A DNA stretch of 64,000 nucleotides from an uncultured Veillonellaceae bacterium. GTDB lineage: Bacteria; Bacillota; Negativicutes; Veillonellales; Veillonellaceae. The stretch covers positions 1 to 64,000 of the forward strand of contig CAMBIX010000009.1 in NCBI GenBank assembly GCA_945867815.1, written 5' to 3'. The translations under genes were made by a program, and so were the position numbers. The notes below the pieces were generated by a model that was given only the letters and a program-made list of their open reading frames with translations, was not told where the DNA came from and did no database searches. This document shows, in pieces, positions 26,536 through 33,135 of the stretch; position 1 is the first letter of the stretch; the number at the start of each line of letters is the position of its first letter.

Positions 26536-27558
26536 ATGGCAAAAGACTTGGATTGGGGTAATATTGGGTTTGAATATCGAAAGACAGATAAACGGTATGT
26601 GTCTAATTATAAAGATGGCAAGTGGGATGATGGCGTTTTAACGACGGATAATAAGGTTATTATTTCTGAAGATGCTGGCGTTCTCCATTATGCACAGGAA
26701 TGTTTTGAAGGATTAAAGGCGTATACAACGAAAGAGGGACATATTGTTATATTCCGTCCAGATTTGAATGCAGAACGCATGTATAATACGGCAAAACGAT
26801 TAGAGATGCCATCGTTTCCTAAAGACCGTTTTGTAGAGGCTGTAAAACAGGTGGTAGAAGCCAATATTGACTGGGTGCCACCTTATGGTAGTGGTGCTAC
26901 CTTGTATATTCGTCCAGTTATGTTTGCCACTGGGGAGGTTATTGGTGTTAAGCCAGCGGATGAATATCAGTTCCGTATTTTTGCAACGCCAGTAGGTCCC
27001 TATTATAAGGGCGGCGCTAAGCCAATCGCTATTAAGATTAGTGATTTTGACCGTGCAGCGCCTCGTGGGACAGGCCATATCAAGGCGGGCTTGAATTATG
27101 CTATGAGTTTACATGCTAATGTGACAGCTCATGCGGAAGGCTTTGCAGAAAATTTATATTTGGATCCAGCTACGCGGACAAAGGTAGAAGAAGCGGGTGG
27201 CGCTAATATTATCTTTGTTGATAAGGATGGCAACTTAGTTATTCCTAAATCAGATAGTATTTTGCCATCTGTTACTCGTCGGTCCATTGCTTATGTAGCC
27301 CAACATTATTTACATTTGAAAGTAACGGAACGAGAAGTATTATTTAGCGAGGTACCTCATTTTGCTGAAGCCGGCTTATGTGGTACAGCTGCTGTTATTT
27401 CACCAATTGGGTTAATTAATGACCATGGTAAGGAAATTACTTTCTCTAATGGGATGGAAAAGGCCGGCCCTGTTATTAGTAAGTTATACCAGACTTTGAC
27501 AGATATTCAGATGGGTAATATAGAAGCACCAGAAGGTTGGATTTATAGAATTAAATAG
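26536..27558 (+). CDS. ilvE: Branched-chain amino acid aminotransferase
   Basis: A 340-residue fold-type IV PLP aminotransferase catalysing the last step of Leu/Ile/Val synthesis. The PLP lysine is in GTGHIKAGLNYA (near residue 182), and the family motif LCGTAAVISP follows near 285. Separated from the ilv operon by about 10 kb, it has its own promoter with an operator-like palindrome. Confidence 0.93.
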   Translation: MAKDLDWGNIGFEYRKTDKRYVSNYKDGKWDDGVLTTDNKVIISEDAGVLHYAQECFEGLKAYTTKEGHIVIFRPDLNAERMYNTAKRLEMPSFPKDRFVEAVKQVVEANIDWVPPYGSGATLYIRPVMFATGEVIGVKPADEYQFRIFATPVGPYYKGGAKPIAIKISDFDRAAPRGTGHIKAGLNYAMSLHANVTAHAEGFAENLYLDPATRTKVEEAGGANIIFVDKDGNLVIPKSDSILPSVTRRSIAYVAQHYLHLKVTEREVLFSEVPHFAEAGLCGTAAVISPIGLINDHGKEITFSNGMEKAGPVISKLYQTLTDIQMGNIEAPEGWIYRIK

Positions 27559-27669
27559 TAGGCACAGCAGGTATGGATAGAAAAAATTAGATAAACAGTA
27601 GAAAATAGGCTATAATGTAAGAATATTGTAGTGAGAGGTATCAAACATATTGTAAGAGGAGTTATTAGA

Positions 27670-28017
27670 ATGGAACTTTCATATGCGCGATTAGCTGCTA
27701 TTTTCAAGGCCTTATCGGATGAAACAAGATTGCATATTATAGATATGTTGTCTTGTAACGAGTTATGTGCCTGTGATATTTTATCTAGTTTTGATTTATC
27801 TCAATCAACTTTGAGTTATCATATGAAAATCTTATTAGATGCGGGTGTGGTAAAGTCTAAGCGAAATGGTTTGTGGACTATGTATTCTATTAATGAAGAG
27901 ACGTTTCAGGAAATCTTAAGTGTAATTCCTGATTTATATCAGCATAAAAAAGAATGCATTTGTGCACAGATTAAATATTGTCGTATAGAGGACAAAGAGA
28001 AAACGGAGTTTCTATGA
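27670..28017 (+). CDS. ArsR/SmtB-family transcriptional regulator
   Basis: A 115-residue winged-helix repressor. The ELCACDIL segment resembles the ELCVCDL As(III)-binding Cys pair of ArsR, and further Cys residues lie near the C-terminus (ECICAQIKYC). The ATG at 27670 follows AAGAGGAG; the longer GTG-started frame (27631) is less likely. A promoter with TATAAT at 27611 precedes it. It overlaps the dinB start by 4 bp (ATGA), so it would regulate an operon with dinB and larA. No arsenic transporter is adjacent. Confidence 0.85.
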   Translation: MELSYARLAAIFKALSDETRLHIIDMLSCNELCACDILSSFDLSQSTLSYHMKILLDAGVVKSKRNGLWTMYSINEETFQEILSVIPDLYQHKKECICAQIKYCRIEDKEKTEFL

Positions 28018-30515
28018 GACGTTGGATTATGCATGTGGATATGGATGCCTTTTTCGCGTCTGTAGAACAGCATGATTTTCCAGAATATAAAGGCCGCCCA
28101 GTTATTGTAGGCGGCCTTTCTGCTAGGGGCGTTGTAGCAACAGCTTCTTATGAGGCACGTGCTTACGGGGTGCATTCCGCTATGAGCATGGCTAAGGCTA
28201 AGCGCTTATGTCCTAATGGTATTTATCTGTGGCCTAGATTTGAACGTTATCAGGAGGTGTCACGGCAGGTTCATGAAGTGATGGAGGCTTATTCTCCTTA
28301 CATTGAACCCATTTCCTTGGATGAAGCCTTTTTGGATATTACGGCCTTAACGGGTCGCTATAGTGGACCTTATGCTTTAGGGCGTGAGTTTAAGGAAAAA
28401 GTTTTAGCTAAAACAGATTTAATCATTTCTGTGGGTCTAGCGCCCAATAAGTTTTTAGCAAAACTCGCGTCAGATTGGAAAAAACCAGATGGCTTAGTTG
28501 TTATTCCTTATGGTAAAGAGGCAGAGATGATTGCTCCTCTGCCTGTCAAGCGCTTATGGGGCGTAGGTAAGCAGACAGAGAAGCGATTGAAAGAGGCTGG
28601 CTTTTACACTATTGGAGATATAGCAAAACTTACAAATGCTACAGCCTTGCAAACGATTTGCGGTAAATGGGCGGAGCGCTTATATCTCATGGCTAAGGGG
28701 ATTGATGAGCGGCCTATTGAATATGAACGCACCTTGCAGTCGGTCGGTAATGAAGAGACTTATGAAGAAGACCTAGATGATGAAGAGGTTATTGATGGGG
28801 AGTGGCATTATTTTGCTCACCGCGTAGGAAAACGACTGCGACGAAAGGGGCTTAAGGGCCATACCGTGACGATTAAGATTCGTTATAATGATTTTTCTAC
28901 CTTCACTAGGCAAAAGCAGATTGATTACCCAACAGATGAGGAAGAAACTATCTATGAAGCGATCCAGCAATTGTATCAAAAGGTACATCGCATAAAGCCT
29001 GTACGATTACTAGGGGTGACGGTGAGTGGCTTTGATAAGACGCTTGTACAGGAATCTTTGTTTTCTCATGAAGAGGAACGGCATCAGTTAACAGAAACGA
29101 TAGATCAGTTAGAACATCGCTTTGGCGATAATATTGTGATGAGAGGGTCCTTGTGGCAGCGTAATCGGCTGCAACGACGACCGACGAGACGAAGAGAGTT
29201 ACAAAAGGGAGAGATAGATATGAAAACATTTACACTAGCTTGTGGGCATGGCAGCCAAACAGTACAGATACCAGAAAAACAGATTATTGATGTAGTAGAA
29301 GGTAAAGAGTATCCGTCTTTACAAGACATAAAGCAAGCTGTTTTGGACGTATTAGATCATCCAACGGCTTCGAAACCTTTGCGGGAGATTGTAAAAGCGG
29401 GTGAAACAGTATGCGTTGTCGTATCAGACATCACACGGGCGTGGATTCGTTATGATCTATTTTTACCAGTTTTGTTGGATTATTTAAATGCTCTGGGTGT
29501 TAAAGATAAGGATATTACCTTATTAGTTGCGTATGGTTCGCATCGCTTACAGACAGGGGTAGAAAATGTTAAAGAATTTGGTCAAGAGGTAGTCAATCGT
29601 GTAGCGATTAAATCAAGCAGTGCTATTAATAAAGATTGTAATTATGTGCATATAGGCGAAACGTCTCATGGTGTACCGATTGAGTTAAACGAAGTCGCTC
29701 TTAAGGCAGACCGTTTAATTTTGACAGGTGGTATTGTTTTTCACTTGATTGCAGGTTTTGGCGGTGGTCGTAAGGCGGTTATGCCAGGTATTTCTTCTTA
29801 TGAAGCTATACAGAAGAATCACTGCTTATGTTTAACAGAAGAAGTGGGCGGCGGTTGTCGACCAGAAATCGTTAGTGGTAATATTACGACCAATCGTATG
29901 CATGATGACCAAATGGAACATGCCTTAGCGGCTAAGCCTGATTTTTTAATCAATGTGGTGGCTAATGCGGAAGGCAAACCGGCAGCCTTTGTTGGAGGCG
30001 ATTTAAAAGAAGCGTGGTTAAAGGGGACACAGCTAGTTAAAGCTATGTATGAAGTACCGATTCAGAAACAGGCGGATTGCGTTGTTGCTTCAGCTGGTGG
30101 TTTTCCTATGGATATAAATTTATATCAAGGTGTTAAAACCCAAGATAATGCCGTTAAAGCGTGTCGTGATGGGGGCGTCGTTATTTTACTTATGGATTTA
30201 GAGGATATCGAAGAACCAGGCGATTTTGTCGGTTGGTTTGCTCATCCTAGCGTTTATGACCATGAAGTGGCCTTACGTAAGGCCTTTACGGTACCGGGGT
30301 TTGCTTCTTTCTTGATGCGTACTTACTTTGAAAAGAAGCATCATATTTTAGTAACGAATAAGAAAAATCTTCCATTGGATAAGAAGTTTGGCGTTGAAAT
30401 GGTAGATAGTTTAGATAAGGCTATGAGTCGAGCTAAAGAAATTCTAGGACGAAATGATTTTTCGATTACAGTTATGCCGGAGGCAAGTCATACTTTGCCA
30501 GTGGTAAAAAAATAA
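28014..30515 (+). CDS. dinB: DNA polymerase IV (DinB) frame fused in-frame to LarA
   Basis: One open frame of 833 codons. Residues 1-~390 are a Y-family polymerase with HVDMDAFFASVEQ near the N-terminus and SLDEAFLDIT near residue 100, ending where DinB normally ends (HRFGDNIVMRGSLW). Then comes a basic stretch (RNRLQRRPTRRRELQKGEID) and, without any stop, LarA from residue 403. The start is ATG 28014 after GGAG, coupled to arsR. A 1-nt shift near the junction would give stop codons (TAG, TGA) immediately, so loss of an ancestral stop by an indel, or a sequencing indel, are alternatives to a true fusion. A polymerase-racemase fusion is not an architecture I know. Confidence 0.7.
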   Translation: MRRWIMHVDMDAFFASVEQHDFPEYKGRPVIVGGLSARGVVATASYEARAYGVHSAMSMAKAKRLCPNGIYLWPRFERYQEVSRQVHEVMEAYSPYIEPISLDEAFLDITALTGRYSGPYALGREFKEKVLAKTDLIISVGLAPNKFLAKLASDWKKPDGLVVIPYGKEAEMIAPLPVKRLWGVGKQTEKRLKEAGFYTIGDIAKLTNATALQTICGKWAERLYLMAKGIDERPIEYERTLQSVGNEETYEEDLDDEEVIDGEWHYFAHRVGKRLRRKGLKGHTVTIKIRYNDFSTFTRQKQIDYPTDEEETIYEAIQQLYQKVHRIKPVRLLGVTVSGFDKTLVQESLFSHEEERHQLTETIDQLEHRFGDNIVMRGSLWQRNRLQRRPTRRRELQKGEIDMKTFTLACGHGSQTVQIPEKQIIDVVEGKEYPSLQDIKQAVLDVLDHPTASKPLREIVKAGETVCVVVSDITRAWIRYDLFLPVLLDYLNALGVKDKDITLLVAYGSHRLQTGVENVKEFGQEVVNRVAIKSSSAINKDCNYVHIGETSHGVPIELNEVALKADRLILTGGIVFHLIAGFGGGRKAVMPGISSYEAIQKNHCLCLTEEVGGGCRPEIVSGNITTNRMHDDQMEHALAAKPDFLINVVANAEGKPAAFVGGDLKEAWLKGTQLVKAMYEVPIQKQADCVVASAGGFPMDINLYQGVKTQDNAVKACRDGGVVILLMDLEDIEEPGDFVGWFAHPSVYDHEVALRKAFTVPGFASFLMRTYFEKKHHILVTNKKNLPLDKKFGVEMVDSLDKAMSRAKEILGRNDFSITVMPEASHTLPVVKK
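29220..30515 (+). CDS. larA: LarA-family nickel-pincer lactate racemase
   Basis: A 431-residue product if translated from its own ATG at 29220, which has a AAAGGGAGAG site. Catalytic residues known in Lactiplantibacillus LarA are present one position later: H108, H175, K185 (in GGGRKAVMPG, the residue that carries the nickel-pincer cofactor) and H201. LarA interconverts D- and L-lactate; the cofactor needs LarB, LarC and LarE, none of which is in this window. In the current sequence it is also the C-terminal half of the DinB frame. Because the family includes other 2-hydroxyacid racemases, lactate is likely but not proven. Confidence 0.85.
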   Translation: MKTFTLACGHGSQTVQIPEKQIIDVVEGKEYPSLQDIKQAVLDVLDHPTASKPLREIVKAGETVCVVVSDITRAWIRYDLFLPVLLDYLNALGVKDKDITLLVAYGSHRLQTGVENVKEFGQEVVNRVAIKSSSAINKDCNYVHIGETSHGVPIELNEVALKADRLILTGGIVFHLIAGFGGGRKAVMPGISSYEAIQKNHCLCLTEEVGGGCRPEIVSGNITTNRMHDDQMEHALAAKPDFLINVVANAEGKPAAFVGGDLKEAWLKGTQLVKAMYEVPIQKQADCVVASAGGFPMDINLYQGVKTQDNAVKACRDGGVVILLMDLEDIEEPGDFVGWFAHPSVYDHEVALRKAFTVPGFASFLMRTYFEKKHHILVTNKKNLPLDKKFGVEMVDSLDKAMSRAKEILGRNDFSITVMPEASHTLPVVKK

Positions 30516-30646: not shown

Positions 30647-31834
30647 ATGAGTTTTTCATTGCCGGCCCATGCCGTATTGAAGGGGCCTAATTTTATTAGA
30701 GAAGTTTTTGAACGAGGCGCGGGAATTCCTGGTTTTATTAGTTTCGGTATTGGCAATCCAGCGCCAGAAGCGATTCCCGTTAAGGACATTCAGGCGGCTT
30801 TTGATGCGGTAGTTCATGACAAGCCTATGGAGCTTTTACAATATGGACCCATGATGGGGGATGATCATCTAAGAGAACAAACTTTACAGCGTTTGCTTAC
30901 TAAGCGGCATATGCCTAAAGAGGGGCAGGCTTTGTTGCTTTCTATTGGGGCAGGACAAGATTTGGGTTTAGTACCTAGAACGGTTTGCCAAGCTGGTGAT
31001 GAAGTCTATATGGATGCGTATACGTTTACGAGTGCTATTAATGCGGTACGTAATGTGGGTGCAGTACCGGTAAGCATTGCGATGGACCAAGATGGGATGA
31101 TACCAGAGGATTTAGAAAAAGCGGCGCAATCAGGTAAGGGAAAATATATCTATTTGATTCCTAATTTTCAAAATCCAACAGGAATTACAATGTCTTTAGA
31201 ACGGCGTCAGGCTATTTATGAGATTGCTTCTGAGTATGATTTGTTTATTTATGAAGATGATCCTTATGGAGAAATCCGATTTACTGCGGATGAAGTGCCT
31301 ACTTTTAAATCCTTTGATAAGGAAAATCGCGTTCTTTATGCGGGCTCTTATTCTAAGACCTTGTCGGCAGGGCTACGAGTTGGTTTTTTATATGGGCCTG
31401 CTGAAGTTATTGGGGCTATTCAAGTTTTGAAAAATAATTGTGATGGGCAGATGCCTTTGGTAACACAGCGCGTTGTATCTCATTTGTTAGACACGATTGA
31501 TTATGATAAACAGATTGCTAAGGTAGCTCGTGTCTACCAAGAGAAATGGAAGGTTATGAAGGATACGTATGATCAGTATGGCAGTTCTAAAGTGACCTTT
31601 ACGAATCCGACAGGCGGCATGTTTGTCTGGATGACTATGCCAGATGGGGTAGATAGTAAGGCCTTTTTCGAAGATTGTATGCAACATAAGGTGGGGATAG
31701 TGCCTGGAGCGGCCTTCGCTACGGATGGATCTTTAACGAGTCAATCCTTTCGCTTGAGTTATACCTTCCCTGATCTAGAAAGCATTCGTACGGGAATGGA
31801 AGTTGTGGCTAAATTGACGAGGGCTTACTGCTAG
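30647..31834 (+). CDS. PLP-dependent aminotransferase (LysN/2-aminoadipate type)
   Basis: A 395-residue fold-type I aminotransferase of the MocR-related/LysN group without a GntR DNA-binding domain. The PLP lysine is in GSYSKTLSAGLRVGF (near residue 240), and NPTG is in NFQNPTGIT. A role in aromatic, branched-chain or 2-aminoadipate transamination is possible; it cannot be fixed from sequence. A terminator follows at 31949. Confidence 0.85.
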   Translation: MSFSLPAHAVLKGPNFIREVFERGAGIPGFISFGIGNPAPEAIPVKDIQAAFDAVVHDKPMELLQYGPMMGDDHLREQTLQRLLTKRHMPKEGQALLLSIGAGQDLGLVPRTVCQAGDEVYMDAYTFTSAINAVRNVGAVPVSIAMDQDGMIPEDLEKAAQSGKGKYIYLIPNFQNPTGITMSLERRQAIYEIASEYDLFIYEDDPYGEIRFTADEVPTFKSFDKENRVLYAGSYSKTLSAGLRVGFLYGPAEVIGAIQVLKNNCDGQMPLVTQRVVSHLLDTIDYDKQIAKVARVYQEKWKVMKDTYDQYGSSKVTFTNPTGGMFVWMTMPDGVDSKAFFEDCMQHKVGIVPGAAFATDGSLTSQSFRLSYTFPDLESIRTGMEVVAKLTRAYC

Positions 31835-31990: not shown

Positions 31991-32358
31991 GAGAAATTCT
32001 TAATTAGCTTACTGGGTAAATGAGCTTTAGTTTTGTGGTTTGACATTTTATAAGCTTATGACTGCAGGAGTATAAAATACATGTTAAAATAAAAACAGAT
32101 TAAGACGTGAGGATATTCGTTTTTATTTTTATAGCTGTGGAGATAAATGAAGATGAAGCGAATTACCTACAGGCTTTGGTTATTTATAAAAGGAATGAGC
32201 GGCTTATTGGTCTAATTTATATAGAAAGACTTGTATAGTTAGCATTTTCATTTGTAGGTAGAAAAGAAATGGCTAGGCTGTAACTTGGGTGTAGCTGTTT
32301 ATAAGATGAGTGACTTAGGTAGAGAGTAATAAAAAGTTGTATGGCGAGGAGTGATAGT
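31991..32358. other. Gene-poor stretch before the Lys-tailed gene
   Basis: Contains only a 22-codon ORF at 32147-32215 with a weak GTGGAG site. No confident promoter was found; a TTGACA at 32040 lacks a suitably spaced -10. Confidence 0.3.
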
Positions 32359-33135
32359 ATGCATAATGAACATGGATTAATTGAACAACAAGTTATTGAT
32401 TCGGTACGGCGGGCTTTACGCCGTAAGTATGAACAAGATGGACAGATTTGTGCGTCTTTAGAAGAATTAGGCCAAGATGCGCAGATTCCACCGGAAACAG
32501 TACCGCTGACTTTGGCTGCTTATGGAGAAGCACAAAAACGGCGGCAGTATGTGGCTTTATTAGATAGCCTGTGGCAAGAAATTGCGGACATACAAGAGGT
32601 TATGGAAGGCCTACATGTGTATGCAACCTTAGAAGATCAAGTGGAACGCAGTGAACAATGGGCGGATGCGATTGATTATGATACGGTATGGCTTAATGAA
32701 GTCCAATCTAAGGAGTATCAGAAACGTTTTCCACAGGTTTTGCATGAAGCGACAGTTAATGGATTGGCTACGCAAGAAAAAGAAGAAGCGGATACAGAAC
32801 AGGTCAATACAGAAGATGTATCGGCACCAGTACAAAATGGTAGTAAGATGATAGCTAAGGCTCATCAACAGATTGCTAAGGCCTTGTCTGAATCGGAATT
32901 ATTAACGCAGCAGTTAGGTAAGACGGCTGGACAGGCTGATACATCTGTAAGTGATGAAGGGGATGCGGATAAAGAAGAACTGGCTGTTGATCAGGTAGAG
33001 ATGCAGGATAGAGAGTTTGGCGGAGGTAAAAAGAAAGGAAAGAAGGGGAAAAAGGCTAAAAAAGATAAAAAAGCGGCAAAGAATAAAGCATCTAAGAATA
33101 AGAAGGCTAAGAAAAAGAAAAAGAAAAAGCGATAG
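32359..33135 (+). CDS. Hypothetical protein with a lysine-rich C-terminal tail
   Basis: 258 residues from the ATG at 32359 (AGGAG site); an ATG at 32341 is possible. Residues 1-~150 are predicted mostly helical and acidic. A low-complexity acidic/glutamine linker follows, then a tail of about 40 residues made almost only of Lys, Ala, Gly and Asn, reminiscent of histone H1-like bacterial tails that bind nucleic acids. I do not recognise the N-terminal domain. A hairpin repeat pair lies downstream. Confidence 0.7.
   Translation: MHNEHGLIEQQVIDSVRRALRRKYEQDGQICASLEELGQDAQIPPETVPLTLAAYGEAQKRRQYVALLDSLWQEIADIQEVMEGLHVYATLEDQVERSEQWADAIDYDTVWLNEVQSKEYQKRFPQVLHEATVNGLATQEKEEADTEQVNTEDVSAPVQNGSKMIAKAHQQIAKALSESELLTQQLGKTAGQADTSVSDEGDADKEELAVDQVEMQDREFGGGKKKGKKGKKAKKDKKAAKNKASKNKKAKKKKKKKR

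Follow-up and report, generated by a model that had tools for sequence, protein, structure and literature searches.

An open reading frame running from dinB into a LarAH10-type racemase gene in an uncultured Veillonellaceae bacterium, probably through lineage-specific loss of a stop codon

The LarAH10 enzyme of Megasphaera elsdenii racemises phenyllactate and many hydrophobic 2-hydroxyacids (PMC7583248; PMC11770544), and when characterised it showed no racemisation of lactate (PMC11770544). Some bacterial genes are known to yield a second protein from a start codon inside their own frame, e.g. infB, cheA and clpB, where the products are forms of one protein (PMC11005335), and between neighbouring genes termination-reinitiation works efficiently only where they overlap or lie very close together (PMC10666635). 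No report of a fusion of DinB, the Y-family DNA polymerase IV, to a racemase was found in the open-licence literature. Here we consider a stretch of 64,000 nt (the window; contig CAMBIX010000009.1, assembly GCA_945867815.1) from an uncultured Veillonellaceae bacterium, in which one open frame of 833 codons on the forward strand (28014–30515) is free of stops from the dinB ATG to a TAA at 30513–30515. As an earlier note on this DNA had claimed, and as translation confirms, DinB and a LarA-type racemase both lie complete within the frame, and no stop divides them. Comparison with related genomes suggests that the dinB stop was probably lost in this lineage from an old operon, and that DinB would be produced fused to LarA, with LarA also made alone. 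The features of the locus are collected in Table 1.

Table 1. Annotated features of the arsR-dinB-larA locus in the window.
Feature	Positions	Strand	Basis or remark
Sigma-70-like promoter match TAGATA-17-TATAAT, candidate operon promoter 5' of arsR	27588..27616	+	10/12 positions; weak lead, the region holding no more matches than shuffled sequence
arsR, ArsR/SmtB-family regulator with ELCACD metal-site motif	27670..28017	+	domain/profile matches; its TGA shares 4 nt with the dinB ATG
dinB, complete DNA polymerase IV, 402 codons up to the larA ATG, without its own stop	28014..29219	+	
QESLF codons, beta-clamp-binding-type motif, DinB residues 346–350	29049..29063	+	
Variable DinB tail NRLQRRPTRRRELQKGEID, potential linker to LarA	29163..29219	+	comparison with relatives
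larA Shine-Dalgarno AAGGGAGAG	29205..29213	+	predicted duplex −8.6 kcal/mol
TAG, frame +1 stop	29215..29217	+	
larA, predicted LarAH10-type nickel-pincer-dependent 2-hydroxyacid racemase, 431 aa, own ATG	29220..30515	+	

The first half of the product has the palm, thumb and little-finger domains of a polymerase (Pfam IMS 8–154, IMS_HHH_1 180–231 and IMS_C 242–348) and is assigned to DinB / DNA polymerase IV by the criteria for that enzyme; its best solved structural relative is 7yll. It resembles DNA polymerase IV in its full length and in the catalytic residues D9, D103 and E104, all present, and differs in that the stop is absent and the C-terminus is extended by LarA. A search with PF00817 found no other Y-family polymerase in the genome, and a fused product would hence be the sole enzyme of the Pol IV type encoded there. 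It is very unlikely, in our judgement, that this sole polymerase exists only as a 94-kDa DinB-LarA chimera in which the two activities would be coupled physically and quantitatively, with benefit to the cell and under an ArsR-type sensor.

The second half carries Lar_N (411–608) and LarA_C (685–823), and residues 404–830 give a full-length match to the LarA family profile. The catalytic histidine, cofactor lysine and nickel-ligand histidine positions (H108, H175, K185 and H201 in LarA numbering) are all kept, as reported earlier. The label "lactate racemase" then given to the protein does not stand, since it scores 261 bits against a cut-off of 460 on the lactate racemase profile NF033504, and 564.4 bits against a cut-off of 540 on the NCBIfam LarAH10 equivalog NF052525, over positions 1–426 of 426. 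By these profiles the enzyme is a predicted LarAH10-type racemase of hydrophobic 2-hydroxyacids, not a lactate racemase. It shares with M. elsdenii LarAH10 the equivalog at full length and the catalytic His, Lys and nickel-ligand His, and differs from it in its possible N-terminal fusion to DinB. Profile matches place a branched-chain aminotransferase (26536–27558) and another aminotransferase (30647–31834) on either side of the locus, and these would suit 2-hydroxyacids derived from amino acids. The latter, MocR-like/class I, lies between larA and a conserved hypothetical gene at 32341–33135; in most sister-genus genomes that hypothetical gene comes straight after larA.

Genes for the NPN cofactor are found above cut-off elsewhere in the genome: LarB (contig C1:212888), LarC in parts (C4:80279 and C1:213531) and a LarE-type gene (C8:11413). 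The nickel-inserting LarC is split over two contigs, its N-terminal part standing alone at C4:80279–80950 and its C-terminal part beside LarB at C1:213531–213917. In Lactobacillus plantarum the two parts of LarC are adjacent and joined by frameshifting. Two further LarA homologues are present, at C12:39425–40711 (37% identical to the LarA of the window) and C3:164043–165029 (33%).

The locus was compared with 28 genomes of the family and with named records, and 61 genomes of the order were searched with a 150-residue junction probe. In all the Veillonella-type loci examined, dinB has an arsR gene in front of it. The arrangement arsR-dinB-larA occurs in V. montpellierensis and in seven sister-genus genomes (V. 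seminalis, V. ratti, V. magna, V. intestinalis, Veillonella sp. R32, KGMB01456 and G021), while no larA follows dinB in the V. parvula group or in the group of V. sp. CHU740/3310. The gene order and strand of the operon in V. montpellierensis and the sister genus are those of the window, with ArsR 78–83%, DinB 60–68% and LarA 55–61% identical; however, dinB has its own stop there and none in the window's genome. In the seven sister-genus genomes that stop is a TAA in the −1 frame, lying 14 nt into larA (ATGAAACATTTTAAA), and in V. montpellierensis dinB and larA are 74 nt apart. Aligning the junction with relatives, which the earlier note had proposed as a check, thus shows dinB and larA as separate genes at the same place. 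The note had also held that an operon of polymerase, ArsR sensor and LarA would be new, but eight other Veillonellaceae genomes carry it. What sets the window's lineage apart is the missing stop alone, the operon being shared by several of the family's lineages.

The regulator directly 5' of dinB is of the ArsR/SmtB type and is 73–83% identical across the Veillonella-type genomes examined; its motifs are ELCACD or ELCAAD and a conserved C-terminal ECICAQIKYCR. No paper on an arsR-dinB operon was found in the open-licence literature.

A single frame over the junction was found in one of the 61 genomes of the order, the window's own, its genus being represented by that one genome; the fusion was thus not seen to be kept in a second species. 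This bears on the possibility of a selected bifunctional protein, in which tethering the racemase to the polymerase would be useful, e.g. for co-localisation, dosage or stability. We give this little credence. The catalytic residues are all kept in both halves and the linkage of arsR, dinB and larA is old, which hints at a shared advantage, but the absence of the joined frame from the other genomes of the order speaks against it, as do a junction tail that is not conserved and the strong start of larA, which a fusion would not need. We are aware of no biochemical connection of 2-hydroxyacid racemisation to translesion synthesis.

How dinB came into the frame of larA can be read from its 3' end. 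The tail after the conserved LWxR of DinB (LWQR) differs in every group of relatives, running from 9 to more than 60 residues in the Veillonellaceae (about 60 in the V. parvula group), and because these tails vary so widely it is plausible that DinB tolerates a C-terminal extension past the clamp motif. The tail of the window's dinB is a net 23 nt longer than in the sister genus and consequently lies in the frame of larA. The excess consists of about 17 nt, aligned with uncertain placement at 29164–29180, and of 6 further nt before larA, both of which most sister-genus genomes lack. The sister-genus stop inside larA, TTTTAA, reads TTTACA here. Stops one frame away are present at the junction, as the earlier note had said: a TAA at 29162–29164 in frame +2, and the frame +1 TAG, the nearest out-of-frame stop ahead of larA.

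These stops raise the question of an indel in sequencing or assembly, such that the true sequence would be one or two bases longer or shorter and dinB would end, e.g., at the frame +1 TAG. The tidy position of that TAG and an out-of-frame TGA overlapping the larA ATG are what ordinary coupled genes would show, and the junction has been seen in one genome of the genus. The likeness of the tail to those of relatives is similar in both readings, with p ~0.08 when the given frame is set against the V. parvula group (ERRKRSELKAEID and QRRPTRRRELQKGEID being the best pair) and p 0.11–0.16 for frame +1; that the latter matches the sister-genus tail no worse (p 0.11) is a point for an indel. We nevertheless regard an indel as unlikely. 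In a survey of 864 kb of the window's genome (stretches totalling 800 kb, plus the window) against 2.0 Mb of the sister-genus genome G021, no lone frameshift was found in 527–580 conserved genes, so that the assembly shows no elevated rate of them (none in about 527 conserved genes). With fewer than about 3 indels per 527 kb, and some 60 nt of free tail in each of 245 close gene pairs, fewer than about 0.05 artefacts of this kind would be expected, and for this reason real drift of the tail is likelier than an indel error. The difference in length is, moreover, 23 nt and not one base in a homopolymer.

In the same comparison with G021, dinB and larA were, among 538 reciprocal-best pairs, the one instance of two full-length genes sharing a frame, and the joined frame thereby exceeds chance. 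A second frame-merging match (pflB-type, C1:250826) is not a fusion, the gene being split in the comparison genome: in G021 the pyruvate formate-lyase-type gene lies in two overlapping frames (C1:1927532–1929980) and in the window's genome it is one gene. Two genes in the surveyed part look clearly broken, an AzlC-type gene with a nonsense codon and a C26-type peptidase with two lesions. The latter (C11:11042–11700), with its frame disrupted and its end truncated relative to the sister genus, is probably a pseudogene.

The start of larA has been retained. Both AAGGGAGAG, six nt 5' of the start codon, and the ATG itself lie where the earlier note had placed them. The predicted pairing with the 16S tail (Table 1) is stronger than that of 99.2% of internal in-frame ATGs (n = 3448) and of 70% of first ATGs, and the ribosome site is not sequestered by folding (z 0.11). 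Loss of larA's own start signals, as in a selected fusion, was thus not observed. Because this strong, unfolded Shine-Dalgarno has been kept, LarA is very probably still made alone from its own start. The arrangement would be like that of infB, cheA and clpB, in which a shorter protein is made from a further start within the one frame, with the difference that the downstream product here comes from what was a separate gene ancestrally. The overlapping stop of the sister genus would permit termination-reinitiation; in the window's genome this coupling would be lost and replaced by read-through and direct initiation.

Release of DinB by ribosomal frameshifting near the junction was also considered and seems extremely improbable. 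An in-phase X_XXY_YYZ heptamer, A_AAG_GGA, lies at 29204–29210, just 5' of a purine stretch resembling a Shine-Dalgarno, but such heptamers occur in phase at 0.56% of codons, so that roughly one tail in nine of this length would contain one. The heptamer belongs to the ribosome site itself, and a −1 shift would meet no stop until more than 20 codons into larA. Programmed −1 frameshifting was rejected, the heptamer being expected by chance.

Loss of the dinB stop in an old operon remains the explanation that we prefer. In the ancestral arsR-dinB-larA operon dinB would have ended at or just inside larA, and its unconstrained 3' end would then have changed in length, by the net 23 nt described above, and entered the frame of larA free of stops. 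As nothing stops ribosomes leaving dinB, those finishing it would go on into larA and every DinB would be a DinB-tail-LarA fusion, while those loading at the internal site would yield free LarA. The two enzymes would work independently, and the fusion would be tolerated because the C-terminal tail of DinB is dispensable; it is probably neutral. The earlier note had proposed either a fusion with LarA also made alone or a lost stop or indel; the separate genes of relatives and the strong internal start favour the former through a lost stop, and the indel has lost ground. An accidental fusion, not a new machine with two functions, is most likely.

Automatic annotation would call the 833-residue product a bifunctional "polymerase-racemase", and the locus is a warning in this respect. 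The fusion itself is of modest interest unless shown to be the sole form of DinB and consequential, and the family-wide pairing of an ArsR-type sensor with a translesion polymerase may deserve more attention. With a gap, a 14-nt overlap and an in-frame state all found within one bacterial family, the locus would offer a snapshot of operon neighbours becoming one frame, in which two unrelated genes merge and the downstream one retains a start of its own.
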